Below are positions 1 to 38,332 of a DNA stretch of 57,964 bases, one piece after another. The DNA comes from Cochliopodium minus (Eukaryota > Discosea > Himatismenida > Cochliopodiidae): assembly GCA_024220525.1 (NCBI GenBank), contig JAMYWO010000253.1, positions 1 to 57,964 of the forward strand, written 5' to 3'. Every line of letters starts with the position of its first letter. The stretch's first letter is position 1. The position numbers were made by a program, and so were the translations under genes. The notes beneath the pieces were generated by a model that saw only the letters and a program-made list of their open reading frames with translations, did not search any database and was not told the origin of the DNA.

Positions 1-62
1 AATAAAAATAAAAATAAAAATAAAAATAAAAATAAAAATAAAAATAAAAATAAAAATAAAAA
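1..62. repeat. AAATA-type simple repeat in an intron
   Basis: About twelve tandem copies of AAATAA/AAAAT open the window and grade into irregular A-rich sequence up to about 170. It lies in the intron downstream of the last visible CCA-enzyme exon, so it is intronic low-complexity DNA. No gene is seen in 1-181. Confidence 0.75.
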
Positions 63-2161
63 TAAAATGAAAATAAATGTAAAAATAAAATGAAAAATAA
101 AAAAAAAATAATAAAAAAATCAATGAAAATAAATGTAAAAATAAAATAAAAAATGATAAAAAAATGATAAAAAAATCTAACCTAATTCGTCTGCTAGTTG
201 ACCTGCTATTTTTAAATAATTGACAAGGCCTTCCTCTATTTTAACCAACTTTTCGGAGAAATTAGGAGGAGAAGAATGTATGGTGTTTGCATATTTAAGA
301 GGAGACTTCATCAAGATTTTGGTTACATCTGACAAAGAAACAATACCCAAAACATTTTTTTTGTTATTAATGATAGGTATTATTCTTTGCTTTTTTCTAA
401 TTAATAAAACTAAAATAATGAAATAAAAAAATTGTCAAAAAGTAAATAAAATTTTTTTTCATTTTTTTTGGTTTTACTTTCTATTGCAGAATCCAACATA
501 CATCCAGGATCAAGGCATTTTATGTCTTCATTCATAACTTCAGTTATATTTAATTCTCCCAAACCGTGTTTAATGGCTCTTTCTACTTGTATTTTATCAA
601 CAAGGCCAACGCAAGCCTTCAAATTAGTTTTTTTATGATAAAAAAATTAAAAAAAACAAAAAATTAAATTAAAAAAATAAAAAGTAAAAAGAATTAGAAA
701 ATAAATCAAATTAAAAAAATATAAATCAAATTAAAAAAAAAATTAAAAAAAAAATTAAAAAAACATTAAAAATCTATTCACATTATTTTCGTCCACAACA
801 GGAACTTTTTTAGAAGGGGTAGTCAAAAACACCAAATTCATGGTTTCTTCAATTGTTTTGGTGTTGCTTATCACAATAGGGTTCTTGTTCATTATACTTT
901 CGAGAGTGACAGGTGGAGACAACTTTGTTTGGATGTGCGCAACTAGCTTCTCTTTCACTTCACTGAAAGTCAAGCTTTTAGCCTTTGCATATCCTTTTTG
1001 AAAAATGAAAAAAAATTAAAAAATTTAAATAAAAATCTAAAATTTAAAAATAAAAAATAATAAAAAATAAAAAATAAAAAATAAAAAATAAAAATAAAAA
1101 TTAAAAATAACAATTTTTTTTTTTTTACCTGACAATGCACTTCCTCCTCCATTTTCAAAATAAGACAATATAGAACCAATATTAAACACAAATTTGTTAG
1201 ATTTCCCAACAATGACAATAGAGTCTTCAAACTCCGCTATTGCGAAAACAATAGGAAAGTTTTTATCGTCCAAGAATCTTTGCACAACGGAAGAGAAATG
1301 AGGAATGTTCTTTTCAGACTTCACTTCAGCAATGTATATATTTTGTTCTTGTACTTGTATCAACATCGAGGTAGAGCATAATTGCTCGTAAGCCTCTTGT
1401 TGTTCATTTGAAAGGTTATTTATAATCATATCTGTTTGATGTCTCTGAGAAAATCTAAAATAAAAAAAAAAATTGAAAAAAGAAAAATTTAAATAAATAA
1501 AAAAAAATTAAAATATTTTAATAAAGTTTTTTATTTACCTCATAACAGAAGATAGATCCAAATCATAATTAGATTTTAAATAAGCAAATGCCAAAATGTC
1601 TTCTGTTTGTGTATTCGAAAATAGAAACCCTCCAGTGTCTTCATACAATCCTATCGCAATGATGGTTGCTTCATCCTTGGACAAGATCACATGATTCTCT
1701 TTTTTTTCGTTCAATCTTTTAATTTCTTCGATCAAGATTGAACAGCATGATCCTCTCACCTTTCTATTGATTTCTCCAACCAAATCTTTTTCTTTATTTT
1801 CAATTTTATTATTGTATATAATACTCTTTATTTTCTCTTCTTTTATATTCTTCAATATTTCTTCTCCAAGATGTTTTAAATTTTCTATCTTTGATGTATT
1901 TACAACCACCATATATTTTATATTTTCCAAAGGAAAATTATTAAGATGTGTTATCAGATTGAGATCTAAAATCTCTTTTTTTGCATTCACAAAATTCTGC
2001 AAACTCTCATCATTAGATCCAGGCCATAATATCACTGAATTCTTGTAGAGTTTGGAAGATGCAATAATAGATCCAAAAGCACCAGGATCTGCAATATCAT
2101 GGCAAGTGATAATGGTATTTATTTCTGATTTTAACTTTTTTTTTGAAGGTAAATTCTCCAT
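1..2161 (-). CDS. DHH-DHHA1-CBS-CBS protein, 5' part of a bacterial-type fused CCA-adding enzyme/poly(A) polymerase (partial)
   Basis: Five exons (2161-1539, 1454-1129, 993-782, 616-478, 409-182) give 509 codons with all phases closing; a donor follows the last exon, so the gene continues left of the window. Residues 1-210 are a DHH phosphoesterase-like domain (ITCHDIADPGAFGS near the start, then EATIIAIGLYEDTGGFLFS). Next comes a DHHA1-like segment ending in GGGSALSG. Two CBS domains follow (ESIMNKNPIVIS...VPVVDENN; then ERAIKHGLGELNITEVMN...IIPIINNKKNVLGIVSLSDV). The last visible residues, IAGQLADELG, match the linker that precedes the nucleotidyltransferase head in bacterial DHH-CBS-PolyA_pol proteins, which add or repair tRNA CCA ends. 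The catalytic head is therefore expected off the left edge but is not seen. The DHH motif itself is altered. The domain calls are firm; the CCA role is inferred from domain order. Confidence 0.8.
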
Positions 2162-2317: not shown

Positions 2318-4559
2318 TTATTTATTGGTGCAAACTTTTTTATGATCAGGCCAATCCTTCTTCTGACAATCAATAGAACAATAGTAAGTAGCTTTACAAC
2401 GACTGCAAACCTTACCATCATTTTTGCCACAAACAGCACAACTAGTATCAACTTGGACTGAATAAAGTTTAAAAAAAAAAAATTAAGTTTTTAAAAAAAA
2501 AATCAAAAAAAAATAAAAAATTTACGTTTATTTGGGTTAACTTCAAACCTAATTTCCTCTCCCTTTTCGTTATAATGAGTGCAACCTATAAAAAGTAAAA
2601 TAGTAAAAAATAAATTGTTTGTGTTGTTTTTTTCTTTTTACCGATTGCAAGAGGTCCTTGAGTGAACATAACTACTTTTTGAGAAGCTTGAGAATAAAGA
2701 GTTTTGGTCTGTTCTTGGAAAGGCAGCTCTAACTTCTTGTGACACTTGATGGAACAAATGAAATAAAATGTGGTGTGAACTATTTATTTAAAAGAAAAAT
2801 CATTTAATTAAACAATTTAAAAAAAATAAATAGATAATTTATGTTTAAGATTTACCTTTGCAACCACAAGAAGGATTTGGTCTCTTTTGTTGATATCTTT
2901 TGTCACTACAATGTTCGGTGTGTCTTTGGTGAATCTCCAACATGACCAACCCTACTTTCAATTTACCAGTTTGTTTACCACAAGAAGCGCATATAATCTG
3001 CGAATGAGGAGATAAGGAAAAAACCAAAAAAAAAAAAAACAATTAAATTTGAAATTATGAAAATCAAGATATCAACGATTTCTTACGTCGCATCTGTCGG
3101 AAAGAGTTCTCATAATCCCTCTCTTTTCATGAATTCCATATTGAGTAAAAGAAGCACAGTGTTTACAACCAGAATCCAAACAAACAATATCCCTTCCAAA
3201 GTTTTGAGCGATATTGTTACGATAACTGTTTTGGAACCCAAAAATGGTGCTCCCTACTTTCATGTCCTCATTGGAAGGGAAGCATTGGAAGCAAACCCAT
3301 TCACTAGTATAAGGATTCACAAGAAATCTTTCTTTGTGCTTCTCGCAAACGGAAGTGAATCCTTTTTTTTGATTCTTTGGGAGATTCAAGGGCTCCTCGG
3401 TAGCTTCTTCGATGAGAGGGATGATTATAGCGCAGTAGGTCATTATTTGGACAAAAGAGGTGACTAATTGAGATCCATCATCGTTGAATTGCTTGCGGCA
3501 ATTATCGTGGTAGTTGATATAATAGTTAAGGAGAGAGATCAACTCTTTGGGTCTCTTTAATTCATCCTCTTCGTGATGATGATCATCTATCTTTTCGTGG
3601 GTTATTTCTCCCAACAAATTTGGGATGTGGAAGAGATGTGGTACGATGGATCTGAGTTGAGATTCTTCGATTTCATTCGTATCCTTTACAGAATCCATCA
3701 AATAAGTGATTCTCTGTTCCAATTTTTTTTTGGCAGTGTTATTCTTCTTTTGTTCATTCCACCAATCTTCAAATTTGGTTTTCTTTTGAGAATTACCTAT
3801 GAATAACTTCAATTTAGAAATATTGAGGAGAGTTGTGGTTGATAAATTATTCAAATTGAACATCAATGGTGGCTTTGCAGTATGTCCTTTTTGTTCTCCA
3901 TGTCCATGGCAAGGTTTACCATTGTGAGAATGTCCATGACTTTCTTGTTGTCCACCATGTGAATGCCCATGATCTCCTCCATGTGAGTGTCCATGATCAC
4001 CTCCTTGTGAATGAGAATGGCCATGATGATCATCTTCTTCATGATCATCATCGCATTCTTCTTCACCTCCATGTGAATGACCATGTCCTCCATGTGAATG
4101 AGAATGACCATGCTTTTCAATTTTATTTTCTTGTTGTCCTCCATGTGAATGTCCATGATTACCTCCATGTGAATGGGAATGGCCGTGATCATCTTCTTCA
4201 TGATCATCATCGCATTCTTCTTCACCTCCATGCGAATGACCATGTCCTTTTTGATTACCGTGAGAATGACCATGTTTTTCAATTTTATTTTCTTGTTGTC
4301 CTCCATGTGAATGTCCATGATTACCTCCATGTGAATGGGAATGACCATGATGATCATCTTCCTCCTCTTCTTCACCTCCATGTGAATGACCATGTCCTTG
4401 ATTTTGTTCTCCATGTCCATGGCATGGTTTTCCATTGTGAGAATGTCCATGATTTCTGTTTATATTTTGTTGGATATTCATAAAGCTTTGTCTATTTATG
4501 AATACCAAATTGATAGGGAATAATGATGATAAATCCTCTGTTATTTTTAAATTTTCCAT
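2318..4559 (-). CDS. Histidine-rich (HGHSHGG-repeat) MYND zinc-finger protein
   Basis: Five exons (4559-3087, 2997-2856, 2779-2642, 2585-2526, 2457-2318) give 650 aa. Residues about 33-225 are almost entirely His-Gly-Ser repeats (HGHSHGG) broken by acidic spacers such as [15 protein letters not shown], a composition suited to binding Zn, Ni or Cu. A helical, Cys-poor middle follows, then several Cys pairs (CEKH...[23 protein letters not shown]). The C-terminus is a MYND finger: [15 protein letters not shown], then [13 protein letters not shown] and KKVC. MYND fingers bind Zn and usually mediate protein contacts. There are no membrane segments, so this is not a ZnT/ZIP transporter despite the similar repeat. 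A cytosolic or nuclear metal buffer or chaperone is a guess. The start is the first ATG of the long exon and has an A-rich leader. Confidence 0.8.
3930..4450 (-). repeat. Coding minisatellite encoding HGHSHGG blocks
   Basis: Imperfect tandem units built on (antisense) CATGGACATTCACATGGAGG recur, along with a larger duplicated block containing the acidic [13 protein letters not shown] spacer and the [13 protein letters not shown] segment. At least two long, near-identical copies are visible (about 4060-4180 and 4190-4320). This is in-frame repeat expansion inside the His-rich gene. The same periodicity creates long open frames on the opposite strand and in other frames, which are not genes. 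Confidence 0.85.
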
Positions 4560-29983: not shown

Positions 29984-31843
29984 TTAATATTTGTACAAAA
30001 TAGAGGAATAGGATTTCCTGTCTATCATTCTAACTATTTCGAAAACAATGTATTTTGGAAGTTTAAAATAGTTGAAATTTTTTTGTGTTACTTTAAGAGA
30101 AACCATCAAAGTAAAAACACAATTTTTAAACAAGTCTGAAAAATAGAAATGATTATGTGTTTCCCATCTAATATTTCCATCAATGTAGAGCTGAATCAAA
30201 AACTGTTCGGGATAAACTAATCTTACATCGGATTGATTACAAGAAAAGTATTTTAAAGAACTGTTCACTTTCAATGGATCCAAAAGATGTTTCAATCCTT
30301 CTTCAGTATTATCATTATTATTAAGATCAATCAATGTTAATGAATTATTTTTTGAAATCAAAGAAGAAATATGGAAGAATCCTTCATTTCCAATTTTATT
30401 TCTATTTAGATGAATTTCTTTAAGAGATGCATTTTTTATCAATGATTTACAAAGAAATTTCACTCCTAAATCGGTAATATTATTTTTGTTCAGGTTCAAT
30501 GATTTCAAAAATTTGTTGTATTCCAAAAATTCACAAAGAATTATCAGTGATTGGTCTTCTATTTCGTTGGAAGAAAGAACCAAATGTTTCAAAGTATAAT
30601 TTTGAGAAAGGGCGTCTTTTAAATAACCATAAGTTTCTAACCTAAACACACAAGAATCCAAATATAATTTTCTTAAAGAATCATTTTTTGTCAAAAAATT
30701 GGAAATGGTTTTCAAAGAATCAGTGATGCTGTTTTTGCTAATATTTAAAATTTTCAGTGTTTTATTACCTTCAATTCTATTCAATAAACAATCTAATACT
30801 TCGTTGGTTATATTAGATTCAAAATGAGAAATATTTAAATAAGTTAAAGAAACATTTTTTTTCAGAGAAAGAGACAAATCAACTATGCCATTCATTCCAA
30901 AATTATTTCTCGAAAGAATAAGGGATGAAAGAACCGTGTTGGTGGAAATAATTTGTGAGATAATCTTCATAGAATTATCATTTAAATTTGAAATTCTCAG
31001 ATCCAACATTTCTATTGTTTCATTTTCTTTAAATAAATCCAATAGTAAAAGAGATTTCTCCTCATTCATTTCATTTCTGCTCAAATCAATGGATTGGATT
31101 GATTTATTCTTTTTCAATGCTTCAGTCAATAATCTTAAAGAATTAAGAGAAATATTCAAAGAGTTTAAAGACAAATACTTCAATGAATTGTTAATGTTGA
31201 GACTATAACTCAAATATTTCATTCCCATCTCATCAAAATTATTATCTCCCAAATAAAGAGAACCCAAAGATGTATTGTGATTCAAAAGATTACAAAAATA
31301 TTTCAAAGATTCATTTCCCAATTCATTATCTGAAATATCCAGCTCCTCCAGTTTATTTTCCTCCAACAAAATCGTCAATTTTTTCAAACATTTGTGTGAC
31401 ATACCACTTTTATTGAGAGACAATTCCCTCAATGTTTTGTTCTCTTCAAAAACTTTACACAAATAATTCACTGCTGAATAAGTTAAAGGTTCGTTCGAGC
31501 TTATATCCAATGATACCAAACTTTTATTTTCATAAAGACATTTTGATAAATATTTAATCCCTTTTTCATCTATTTTATTGTTGCTTATATCCAACATTCT
31601 TATGTTGGTATTTTTAATTAGTGATCTCGAAAGTGATTTCAATTCTGATGATTCTATTTCGTTGGAGCTCAAATCTATTGCTATCAATGTCTTATTCTTT
31701 TTCAATATTATTGATAGATATTCTAGCTCTTCTTCGCATATTCCTAAATCATATCCTCTCAATTTCCTACTCATAGCCTTTTCCAAATTATTAAAAAGAG
31801 AAATTTTTTTATATTTGGATATTTTACTTGAAAATCTATCCAT
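29984..31843 (-). CDS. Leucine-rich repeat protein of the ribonuclease-inhibitor type
   Basis: Single exon, 619 aa, ending SYSSILYKY. Residues ~40-540 are about 18 repeats of roughly 28 residues following the RI/NLRC/RanGAP pattern: LIAIDLSSNEIESSELKSLS, IRMLDISNNKIDEKGIKYLS, LKSLNLNKNNITDLGVKFLC, LKEIHLNRNKIGNEGFFHIS. Such solenoids act as protein-binding scaffolds. There is no NACHT, F-box, kinase or membrane domain, and the C-terminal ~75 residues are not repeat-like. The start is the first ATG with an A/T-rich leader. Amoebae carry large families of these; the partner cannot be named. Confidence 0.85.
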   Translation of the reverse strand: MDRFSSKISKYKKISLFNNLEKAMSRKLRGYDLGICEEELEYLSIILKKNKTLIAIDLSSNEIESSELKSLSRSLIKNTNIRMLDISNNKIDEKGIKYLSKCLYENKSLVSLDISSNEPLTYSAVNYLCKVFEENKTLRELSLNKSGMSHKCLKKLTILLEENKLEELDISDNELGNESLKYFCNLLNHNTSLGSLYLGDNNFDEMGMKYLSYSLNINNSLKYLSLNSLNISLNSLRLLTEALKKNKSIQSIDLSRNEMNEEKSLLLLDLFKENETIEMLDLRISNLNDNSMKIISQIISTNTVLSSLILSRNNFGMNGIVDLSLSLKKNVSLTYLNISHFESNITNEVLDCLLNRIEGNKTLKILNISKNSITDSLKTISNFLTKNDSLRKLYLDSCVFRLETYGYLKDALSQNYTLKHLVLSSNEIEDQSLIILCEFLEYNKFLKSLNLNKNNITDLGVKFLCKSLIKNASLKEIHLNRNKIGNEGFFHISSLISKNNSLTLIDLNNNDNTEEGLKHLLDPLKVNSSLKYFSCNQSDVRLVYPEQFLIQLYIDGNIRWETHNHFYFSDLFKNCVFTLMVSLKVTQKNFNYFKLPKYIVFEIVRMIDRKSYSSILYKY

Positions 31844-34795: not shown

Positions 34796-37700
34796 ATGAA
34801 AAGGTAAATTTAATATTTACTTTAAAAATTTTTTTTAGAATACTCAATTTTTTATTTTCTTTCCCTTTTCAATATATATACGATATATTATTCAGTTCAA
34901 AAAAAGAGATTGAGAAAAAATTGGATACATCAAATAAAAAAGATGAGTTGGAAGGAGATAAGAAGATAATGATACAAAATCCCTTATTTGGAATCAAAAA
35001 TAATAGGTTAGAAGAGATAACAAAAATATAAAAAAAAAATTTCAAAAAAAAATAAATTCAAAGTTTTAAACGTTTATAAATTATTCTCTTCATTCATGAA
35101 TATTAAGGATATGATAGAGGGATTAATAAATATTTATATTTAATGGCGGAGAAATTAATAATAATCTAAGATTCCATTCTTTATAATTTCTTTATTTATT
35201 TTCCGATTATTCTCGACTTGCATAAATTAAAGTGATAAATTTAAATATATTAAATTTAAATGTAAATTTGCCTATTATAAAGAAAAGAAATTGACAAATG
35301 TTAATCTCATTCAAAATTTAAATCTAATATTCTAATTAAATCACATATAATTTGAATATATTTGAAAAAAACATTATAATGATAATGAATTTAACAAATA
35401 TTATCCAATACATGATTCTTACAAACAATTTTTTGATGATTTACAGATTCAGATCTGCAAGTTCAAACAATATGGACGGATACATCAAGAAAAAAGACTC
35501 AAAAACACTAAAAACAGATTCTCCGATGCTAGAAAACAAAAAAGTGACAAAAAGCGAAATACAAAAGATAGAGAAGATGCTTCCACCCTCTCCCAACAAG
35601 AGCGCGTTGAGGGATAAATACAAAAACATAAAAAGTACAAGCACCAACTCGTTTATCTCCCATGCTAGTTTCTTCGATATCAACGAAGCCAAAGAAAATG
35701 GATCCAAAAAAGAAAAAATCGAAGAAGGTAATCCGAATAAAAACTTTAATTAAATAATTAGTAAAATAGAATTTCAATTTAATATCTTTTATTATTAAAT
35801 ATTTAAATTATTTTTTTTTTTTTATTTAAATAAATTGTGATCATTTTTTTTGATTTGATTTCTACAAAGACAATCTATTTAATTTTGTTTATTTTGTTTA
35901 TTACCATCATTATTTTTTTTTTTGTTCAATTTTTGCAACTAAAAAAAAATTTCAAAAAAACGAAAGACAACAAAGAAGATCATCAACAAAAAGAAACCAC
36001 CAAAAAACTTTGCATCAAAGAAAGGAAGCAAAAGAGACGCCATAGCGAACCGTTTTGGCATTCATGGAACTACCACGTCAACAGCAGCTTCAAAGTGAAA
36101 ATGCTCAGCAACAGCAAAGACGCCACGCCCCGAAAGAAAAAGTCTTCTTTGATTATGGACAGAGACTCTCCCATTATTACAGGGAGCAACAGTAGTACTA
36201 CTGCTGTCATGGTAGAGAAGAATGGGAAGAATTTGCTCATCGAGGTTTCTTTTTCCAAACTCATTGATTTTTGTGTTGGCGATGATTTGAATGGTAAACT
36301 TTAAATTTATTTTTTTTTATTTTGATATTTTTTATTTTTATCTTTTTAATTTATTTTCTTTCATTTTTAATTTAAATTTTATTTTGATTTTTATTTGATT
36401 TTATTTCGATTTTTTATTCGAAAAAATTTAAAAATTAAAAATTTTTTTTAGATAACGATTTTCTTTCGTGTTTTTTGTTGACCCACAAGTATTTCTCCAC
36501 TTCGATAGATGTCTTGGAAGAATTAGAAAGAAGATACTTCTCCATCGCATGGGTAGAAAATGAAGACCCTTCTCACAAAAATGTCATTGTCAAAAAATTG
36601 AGGTAAAAATTAATATAAAAAAAAATAAAAATAAAAATGAAAAAAAGAAATATTCAATATTAATATTTTAATTATTTTTTTTTTAATTAAAACATTTTTA
36701 AATTTTTTTAAATAATTTTTTTTTAATTAATAAAAAAAGAGTTATAAATGTATTGAAAAAATGGCTTGGGAGCGATTACTTGAAGTCGGATGTTATTGGG
36801 GACAAAGAGTTGGAGGAAAAGTTTGTTTCTCTCTTTGATAAAATCAAAGACGAGAGCAGTTTCTCCGAAAAGTGGGCTACTCGTCTCAAAGAAAGTTATG
36901 AAGCTCCCTTACATTATCATGAAGTTGGTAAGCAATCAAACAAAAAAAAAAACTTTTTTAAAAATATATTTTTAAATAATTATTATTTTTTTTTAATATT
37001 TTTTTTTTTAATTTTTTTTTAATTTTTAATTTCATTTTATTTTAGGCAAAGATGTTCCACCGCCGATCCTCCCAATCAACATCAACACCAAAGGACTAGA
37101 ATTTTGTGACGTGCATCCTTTGGAGATTGCTCGCCAACTTGCCCTCATAGAATTTAAACTGTTCGAGTCCATCAAACCTTGTGAATTCTTCAGGTGTGCC
37201 TGGAGCAAAAAAAATGGTCAAAAAATTTTATTTTTAATTTTTTATTAATTTTTTTTTAATTTGATATTTTATTTGATTGTATATTTTTAAATCTAGAACA
37301 TTTTATTATTAAAATTTCTTTATCAAATATTCTTTTATTGTCACATTTCAATTTTTTTTAAAATATTTTTTAAAATAGCACAAGAAACAGCACCAAATGT
37401 GATGGCCATGACGAAATTCTTCAACCAAGTATCATTCTGGCTGGCTACAGAAATCGTTCAAACACCCAACCTCGAAAAGAGAGTGGAGATCGTCACTCGT
37501 ATGATCCAACTGGGAGAGTATTCTCTTTCTCTCAACAATTACAATGGTCTCATGGAGATTTATTGTGCTTTAAGCATGTCTCCCATTTCTCGTTTGAAGG
37601 ACACTTGGTCTCTTGGTAAAAAAAAAAAAATTAAAAAAAAATTTTTATTCTTGTTATAAATTTCAATTTAATTTATAACTTATTTCAATTTTATTTTCAT

Positions 37701-38332
37701 TCTATTTTTTTCTGTTATTTTTATTTTCATTCTATTTTTTTTCTGTTATTTTTAGTTCCTGAATCATACATCCAAAAATACAATGGGTTCGCATACTTGC
37801 TCAAACAAAATCAAAACTACAAAAATTATAGAAGTATTGTTGAGGACGCGATGCCTCCACTGATTCCTTTTCAGGGTGTTTACCAAGCGGATCTCACCAT
37901 GTTCGCTGAAACCCCTGACTTCACAGAAAAAACAGGAAACATAAATTTTGAAAAAATGTACAAAATGGGGAAAGGTAAAAAACAAAAAAAAAAAAAAATT
38001 AAAAAAATTGAAATAAAAACTTTTTACACAAAGTTTATAAACAAATTGAGTTGTGCCAGTTGACACATTATGATCTCACTCCTGTCGCTTACATAGCAGA
38101 CTTTATTATGAATGGGGTGAATTCCTCGAAAAACAATGACGAACTTTACAAGCTCTCTTTAGAAATTGAGAACTCAAAGACCAACCCTTCTTCTAAATTG
38201 AAAAAAATCAGAAACAAAACTCGTTTTGGAAAGAAGGAGGTCGTTCCTGATTGGCTCAAAACTTTAAAAAGTAAAAACCCTTTGATGGATATTCTTGTGG
38301 AGAGAGCGATCAATGAAAAAAAGCTCAAATAA
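34796..38332 (+). CDS. Ras guanine-nucleotide exchange factor (RasGEF-N plus CDC25 domain)
   Basis: Ten exons give 682 aa, all phases closing: 34796-34803, 34839-35006, 35447-35727, 35967-36293, 36452-36602, 36740-36927, 37046-37216, 37379-37615, 37756-37974, 38034-38332. Residues 1-240 are Lys/Ser-rich and likely disordered. The RasGEF-N (REM) domain begins ATFSKLIDFC-like (SKLIDFCVGDDLNDNDFLSC, FLLTHKYFSTSIDVLEEL). The CDC25 catalytic domain starts FCDVHPLEIARQLALIEFKL, has NQVSFWLATEIVQTPNLEKR, NNYNGLMEIYCALSMSPISR, IPFQGVYQADLTMF and Y..IELCQLTHYDLTPV. It loads GTP onto a Ras-family GTPase at membranes. The first exon (8 nt) and 35-nt first intron are the weakest part of the model. The T-rich stretch before 35967 reads as a hydrophobic frame but fits an intron better. 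Confidence 0.87.

Follow-up and report, generated by a model that had tools for sequence, protein, structure and literature searches.

A gene at the left end of the contig

The window analysed here is the whole of contig C253 (57,964 nt), from an assembly of 44.65 Mb in 598 contigs. At its left end lies a gene on the minus strand that starts at position 2161 and heads towards base 1. When spliced at GT..AG boundaries its five exons encode 509 amino acids plus one base, and the gene is incomplete at the contig end. All of the gene models discussed (i.e. this gene, its paralogue and the head exons described below) were built manually. The features are as follows.

1539..2161, minus strand: exon 1, start codon and degenerate DHH domain (amino acids 1-207), from the NF041569 match and an AlphaFold model
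1455..1538, minus strand: intron 1 (GTAAAT..AG)
1129..1454, minus strand: exon 2, remainder of DHH and most of DHHA1, from alignments
994..1128, minus strand: intron 2, position and phase common to the window gene and the paralogue, from alignment
782..993, minus strand: exon 3, end of DHHA1 and first CBS domain, from Pfam and alignment
617..781, minus strand: intron 3 (donor GTGAAT), position and phase common to the window gene and the paralogue
478..616, minus strand: exon 4, inter-CBS linker and start of the second CBS domain, from Pfam and alignment
410..477, minus strand: intron 4, position and phase common to the window gene and the paralogue
182..409, minus strand: exon 5, second CBS domain and pre-head stretch, ending IAGQLADELG in phase 1
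1..181, minus strand: putative open intron (donor GTTAGA), leaving the contig within a (TTTTTA)n tract

The protein is matched by the NCBIfam model NF041569 (A-adding tRNA nucleotidyltransferase) with E 1.9e-33, residues 17-468 aligning with model positions 3-428. This bears out the relation to a bacterial family of fused tRNA 3′-end enzymes that was proposed in the earlier note. The scores of the window part (510 amino acids, 115.8 bits) and the paralogue (257.7 bits) lie far below the NCBI cut-off of 1440 bits, as does that of the sole bacterial homologue scanned (L019, 890.9 bits). Pfam recognizes CBS domains in two stretches (PF00571, E 3e-14). It gives no match to DHH or DHHA1 in this protein at E ≤ 0.1, the DHH domain being too degenerate. 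An AlphaFold model of exon 1, calculated with an alignment of the window exon and 38 of the 65 usable bacterial rows, adopts the DHH fold with confidence (pLDDT 90.3, pTM 0.88). Its best matches in the PDB are to GdpP, DhhP, the TM1595 phosphodiesterase and NrnA; the entries 5xt3, 9r7o and 8iu7 match with TMq of 0.74, 0.70 and 0.61. The order DHH, DHHA1 and two CBS domains is thus as first described. The linkers also resemble those of the family as claimed, both between the CBS domains (ERAIKHGLGE, compared with e.g. EKATFHGLGH in homologue L044) and before the expected head (GQLADELG, compared with e.g. GKVADELG in L032). The introns agree with the assignment as a nuclear gene. Four of the five that were counted earlier are complete, but the fifth is just putative and is open at the contig end.

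Some other features of the window were observed in passing. A frame of 495 amino acids (3072-4559, minus strand) with the extensive repeat [16 protein letters not shown] looks metal-binding; the exons downstream of it terminate in a MYND-like Cys/His motif (by eye). A frame of 619 amino acids (29984-31843, minus strand) contains leucine-rich repeats, again judged by eye. There is a RasGEF domain at 37123-37958. This is a large family, with 171 matches at E ≤ 0.01 in the genome (one search; 217 candidates, of which 150 were scored).

The active site of the DHH domain

The protein was aligned with bacterial homologues. These were drawn from the best 80 of at least 536 relatives, of which 71 have an ORF bearing the head motif and 68 are longer than 700 amino acids. 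The 68 were used. Four elements of the DHH and DHHA1 active site are altered in the window gene.

2081..2089, minus strand: DHH motif I, D-P-G in place of the bacterial D-F-D (alignment with the 68 bacterial homologues)
1898..1900, minus strand: DHH motif II, Asp to Asn (N88), so that VDT becomes VNT; D in 66/68 bacteria
1805..1813, minus strand: DHH signature, D-H-H to N-N-K; D, H and H each in 67/68 bacteria
1139..1141, minus strand: GGGH motif of DHHA1, invariant His to Ser (S313); H in 68/68 bacteria

The set therefore reads DPG, N, NNK and GGGS, with one Asp retained (in EDTG). An intact DHH site is ruled out by the alignment, and judging from these substitutions the site appears to be catalytically dead, which the earlier note did not foresee.

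A paralogue on contig C53

A single search of the whole assembly with the window protein found just two DHH-CBS loci, i.e. the window gene and a paralogue at ~8.9-11.7 kb of contig C53. Manual splicing of the latter gave ten exons encoding DHH, DHHA1, two CBS domains and a nucleotidyltransferase head. One exon comprises only 16 bases (L014 3698-3713); it is needed for the frame, and reads VDTFDG with its neighbours. Pfam matches are found for DHH (2e-14), CBS (7.4e-11) and PolyA_pol (2.2e-7), with DHHA1 below the cut-off (22 compared with 25.9 bits), and NF041569 matches with E 2.5e-76. The 12 C-terminal residues, which derive from T-rich sequence, were removed for the alignment with bacteria and were retained for the alignment with the window protein and for Pfam.

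In terms of its motifs the paralogue is the mirror image of the window gene, a second feature that had not been anticipated. It has preserved the motifs of DHH (DFD, VDT, DHH and DDTG, with GGAGH for GGGGH), and those of the head have been lost, GG.VRD having become GEVAID, DxD FIE and RRDFTIN RKDFSVH. As modelled the head ends before the DPTR..R..RF motif; the sequence downstream is partly N, and further exons are possible. Note that neither the degraded DHH site of the window gene nor its mirror image in the paralogue depends upon the connection to the second head on C53 that is considered below. The same applies to the domain content, the family assignment and the introns that the two genes have in common.

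Nucleotidyltransferase heads in the genome

A search for PF01743 gave five matches at E ≤ 0.001 in three loci of the genome, located on C53, C386 and C155; the degenerate head of the paralogue is not among them. The C53 head lies at ~59.3 kb, some ~46 kb from the paralogue in the scaffold. It is encoded by two exons (L017 3829-4074 and 4271-4501) separated by one intron, and carries the motifs GGFVRD, DID and RRDFSIN (GG.VRD, DxD and RRDFTIN in the family). Its best matches in the PDB are 3h37 (E 3.1e-49) and 1vfg (E 4.7e-42), which we take to be the enzymes of T. maritima and Aquifex respectively. Bacterial contamination is ruled out, since introns are present in this head as well as in the window gene and its paralogue, and an HSP90-like frame (by eye) is found near the head.

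The genes on C386 and C155 are two further tRNA nucleotidyltransferase-like genes. The window gene is thus not the sole candidate for a tRNA 3′-end enzyme. They were rejected as the source of the missing head, as one exon of each is nearest in the PDB to 9kma and to the cca1/cca2 entries 9ns2 and 9ns4, all of which are presumably eukaryotic.

Origin of the gene pair

The window gene and the paralogue are sisters in trees calculated for the whole length and for the N-terminal half (SH-aLRT 99 and 100). Three introns are common to the two copies, at positions 316/310 (window/paralogue; phase 1), 387/378 (phase 0) and 433/424 (phase 1). Taken with the sister relationship, this indicates that the duplication probably occurred inside the eukaryote, in a gene that already bore introns.

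Identity between the C53 head and the 80 best bacterial loci is 50-58%. A transfer from bacteria to this eukaryote is likely, in line with the earlier suggestion, but the trees do not support any donor group. In both of them the eukaryotic pair forms a long branch outside the 68 sampled bacterial rows; these were quick searches with a midpoint root, and both eukaryotic rows were flagged for odd composition in the whole-length tree. This placement speaks for an alternative in which the family was vertically inherited or is widespread in eukaryotes, making a transfer into this lineage needless. We consider this improbable, given the identity of the head to the bacterial loci and the fact that its best structural matches are bacterial. 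Moreover, the words CBS and DHH are absent from the accessible portions of two papers on eukaryotic tRNA nucleotidyltransferases (PMC7014341 and PMC7432833). DHH-DHHA1 domains are noted in tRNA nucleotidyltransferases in the accessible part of PMC12709177. No report of a DHH-DHHA1-CBS-CBS-nucleotidyltransferase family in a eukaryote was found in searches of the open-access literature.

Probable connection of the window gene to the C53 head

The earlier note expected a head in the next exons of the gene. One has been found that fits in phase and length, but it lies on another contig and the join is inferred. The phase-1 end of exon 5 meets the phase-1 acceptor of the C53 head, and the joined protein has 20 residues over the junction, the number also seen in the paralogue and in 68/68 bacteria. 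It aligns collinearly with L044 over residues 17-668, with 34.6% identity (E 8.8e-127). The frame of the head has no upstream Met, and an upstream exon is therefore required. In C53 as deposited the head is placed after another gene, and sits to the right of a single n in the scaffold. The same repeat unit, (TTTTTA)n, occurs in the same sense at both broken ends, with 66 bases at the end of the window and 72 bases to the right of the n. The piece on the other side of the n ends in a different repeat, with a unit of 7 bases on the other strand, (TAAAAAA)n. Tracts of (TTTTTA)n with at least five copies number five in the 107 kb examined (one fixed pattern, both strands), including those at the two broken ends. 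Most likely the C53 head belongs to the window gene, and C53 would then be misjoined at the n.

By eye, the gene to the left of the gap (L017 2600-3591) resembles a RasGEF_N gene that breaks off before the domain responsible for catalysis (RasGEF), and this would be consistent with a misjoin. No clear continuation of it was present at three contig starts, in a genome with the many RasGEF matches noted above.

The last exon of the window gene ends GAATTAG|GTTAGA, so that either GTTAGA serves as a donor or the protein stops at ..ADELG. The donor is unusual, and in the unspliced frame a TAG codon follows GGT at that very point. The paralogue uses a donor that has T at +3 (GTTAAA) in an intron whose position is common to both genes. 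The sequence behind exon 5 is 76% T, compared with 63-66% in three introns of the window gene and 44% in the fourth, 20-67% in the introns of the paralogue, and 33% downstream of the neighbouring gene. However, the 145 bases behind the last exon of the paralogue are also 76% T; composition therefore cannot decide whether the open intron is real, and T-richness was dropped as proof of it.

If the gene truly ended at IAGQLADELG it would encode a headless DHH/CBS pseudo-enzyme that is either regulatory or the product of a dying gene, and the C53 head would come from another gene. The in-frame stop codon, the dead DHH site, the T-rich sequence behind the paralogue as well, and the lack of contact between C53 and C253 as assembled would all be consistent with this. 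Against it, the protein would end at a point where, in 68/68 bacteria, VGGFVRD or a near variant follows after only a few residues. It would also leave the C53 head without the upstream exon that it needs, when the only other DHH-CBS locus found in the one search has a head of its own. The common repeat unit at the broken ends also speaks against it. We therefore think a headless protein rather unlikely, and adopt the joined form in what follows.

Bacterial members of the family have an RNA-binding tail following the head, and this was sought for both copies. The PF12627 tail profile gave a single sub-threshold match in the genome, in the C155 gene (E 0.048), and none of the NF041569 matches extended past model position 658 of 880. 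One bacterial tail used as query found nothing in the genome, in a search made without a positive control, and no fitting tail exon was seen by eye behind the C53 head. The tail is weakly conserved, and searching for it exon by exon has little sensitivity. The tail alignment comprised 14 of the 68 bacterial rows. Behind the head and a T-rich (TTTTTTA)n tract there is an exon without a start codon (L017 4500-5440) that is zinc-ribbon/BRCT-like by eye. It is in a non-fitting phase, so the assembly may be faulty there too; alternatively, the exon may belong to an unusual fusion.

Reciprocal loss of conserved residues

The extent of degeneration was compared by counting the alignment columns conserved in ≥95% of the 68 bacteria that are retained in each copy. 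For DHH and DHHA1 together the window gene keeps 19/29 and the paralogue 26/29 (15/22 and 20/22 in DHH; 4/7 and 6/7 in DHHA1). Both keep 4/5 in the CBS domains. In the head (residues 510-649) the window gene with the C53 head keeps 41/41, a figure that depends on the join, and the paralogue 18/41. Comparison of the head with the N-terminal half by Fisher's test gave p 5e-5 and 1e-4 for the two copies. The bacterial loci had been picked by two head patterns plus similarity to the C53 head, so the head count is favoured, and it was therefore repeated without the columns of the search patterns. The joined protein then keeps 29/29 and the paralogue 14/29, with p 8e-4 and 1e-3 relative to the N-terminal half. 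In residues 650-668, which are absent from the paralogue, the joined protein keeps 7/8 (the exception being A to C). When columns conserved at the 90% level are counted along the whole alignment, it retains 87/124 and the paralogue 62/124; the tail, absent from both, accounts for 13 of the 124.

The terminal branches of the trees reverse between the N-terminal half and the whole length, in agreement with the reciprocal loss of columns. For the N-terminal half the branch of the window gene is the longer (1.45, compared with 0.88 for the paralogue), and for the whole length that of the paralogue (1.84, compared with 1.07).

That both copies are simply decaying, as pseudogenes of a redundant acquired gene whose complementary pattern arose by chance, seems very doubtful: two other tRNA nucleotidyltransferase-like genes are present, the paralogue head is degenerate and apparently truncated and the tail was found for neither copy, but every modelled exon of the two genes has an open frame, exon 1 still yields a confident DHH model, and the losses follow domains, with the head columns complete in one copy (with or without those of the search patterns) and nearly all of those of DHH/DHHA1 kept in the other.

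A proposed division of activities

In the bacterial fused protein a CBS pair is combined with two enzymes, a nanoRNase-like phosphoesterase and an RNA 3′-nucleotidyltransferase. We propose, with reasonable confidence, that a bifunctional enzyme of this kind was transferred and then split between two genes by reciprocal degeneration. The ancestor would have been a bacterial DHH-DHHA1-CBS-CBS-nucleotidyltransferase protein of the A-adding tRNA nucleotidyltransferase family, the window gene being the 5′ part of a descendant nuclear gene. The acquired gene would have gained introns and then been duplicated. One copy (i.e. the window gene with the C53 head exons) would have kept the RNA 3′-nucleotidyltransferase and lost phosphoesterase catalysis, its dead DHH part perhaps serving as a scaffold. 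In the other (the C53 paralogue) the phosphoesterase would have persisted, and the nucleotidyltransferase would have been lost but for a relic head. Substrates and catalysis, like any regulation, are inferred here. The two other tRNA nucleotidyltransferase-like genes would let the pair specialize.

The CBS pair is retained in both copies, and might sense nucleotides or pair the two proteins. CBS modules often dimerize, and the two proteins may therefore associate. A stronger version, in which they function only as an obligate heteromer paired via their CBS modules, each supplying the active site lost by the other, is in our view a long shot. Were it true, the cell would have a bacterial two-in-one RNA 3′-end enzyme (trimming or clean-up together with nucleotide addition) beside ordinary CCA enzymes.

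Functions are commonly shared out between gene duplicates, but it is to our knowledge rare for opposite copies of one fused, apparently acquired enzyme to lose different catalytic domains while most of both proteins persists. We know of no explanation for why tRNA 3′-end synthesis is fused in bacteria to a nanoRNase-like domain together with a CBS pair. Evolution appears here to have separated the two activities, and the role of the bacterial fusion thereby becomes testable.

Comparison with known systems

The closest relatives are the NF041569 proteins of Thermodesulfobacteriota, Nitrospirota, Bacillota and others (cf. 1vfg), with which the genes have in common the order DHH-DHHA1-CBS-CBS-head, the linkers and a collinear alignment. 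They differ from the bacterial members in having introns, a dead DHH site in one copy and a dead head in the other, and in that the C-terminal tail was not found. The solved structure closest to the C53 head is that of the CCA-adding enzyme of Thermotoga maritima, which bears Nrn and CBS domains (3h37). That enzyme is one bifunctional bacterial protein, whereas here there are two genes, whose nucleotide specificity is not readable from the sequence. According to the accessible part of PMC8208693, its Nrn and CBS parts are dispensable for CCA addition.

S. pombe and Salpingoeca rosetta have paired CC- and A-adding enzymes, as described in the accessible part of PMC7014341. To the extent covered there, the present pair would be similar in that tRNA nucleotidyltransferases of eukaryotes have subfunctionalized, whether following duplication or transfer. 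In those organisms, however, the CCA reaction is divided, whereas here it is two enzyme domains of one fused protein that appear to have been divided. Finally, the pair resembles gene fission by duplication and partial degeneration, so far as the available portions of that literature describe it, in the complementary loss that follows duplication. Unlike the fissions described there, both copies here retain the greater part of the polypeptide, what is lost being mainly active-site residues, although the paralogue is apparently shortened as well.
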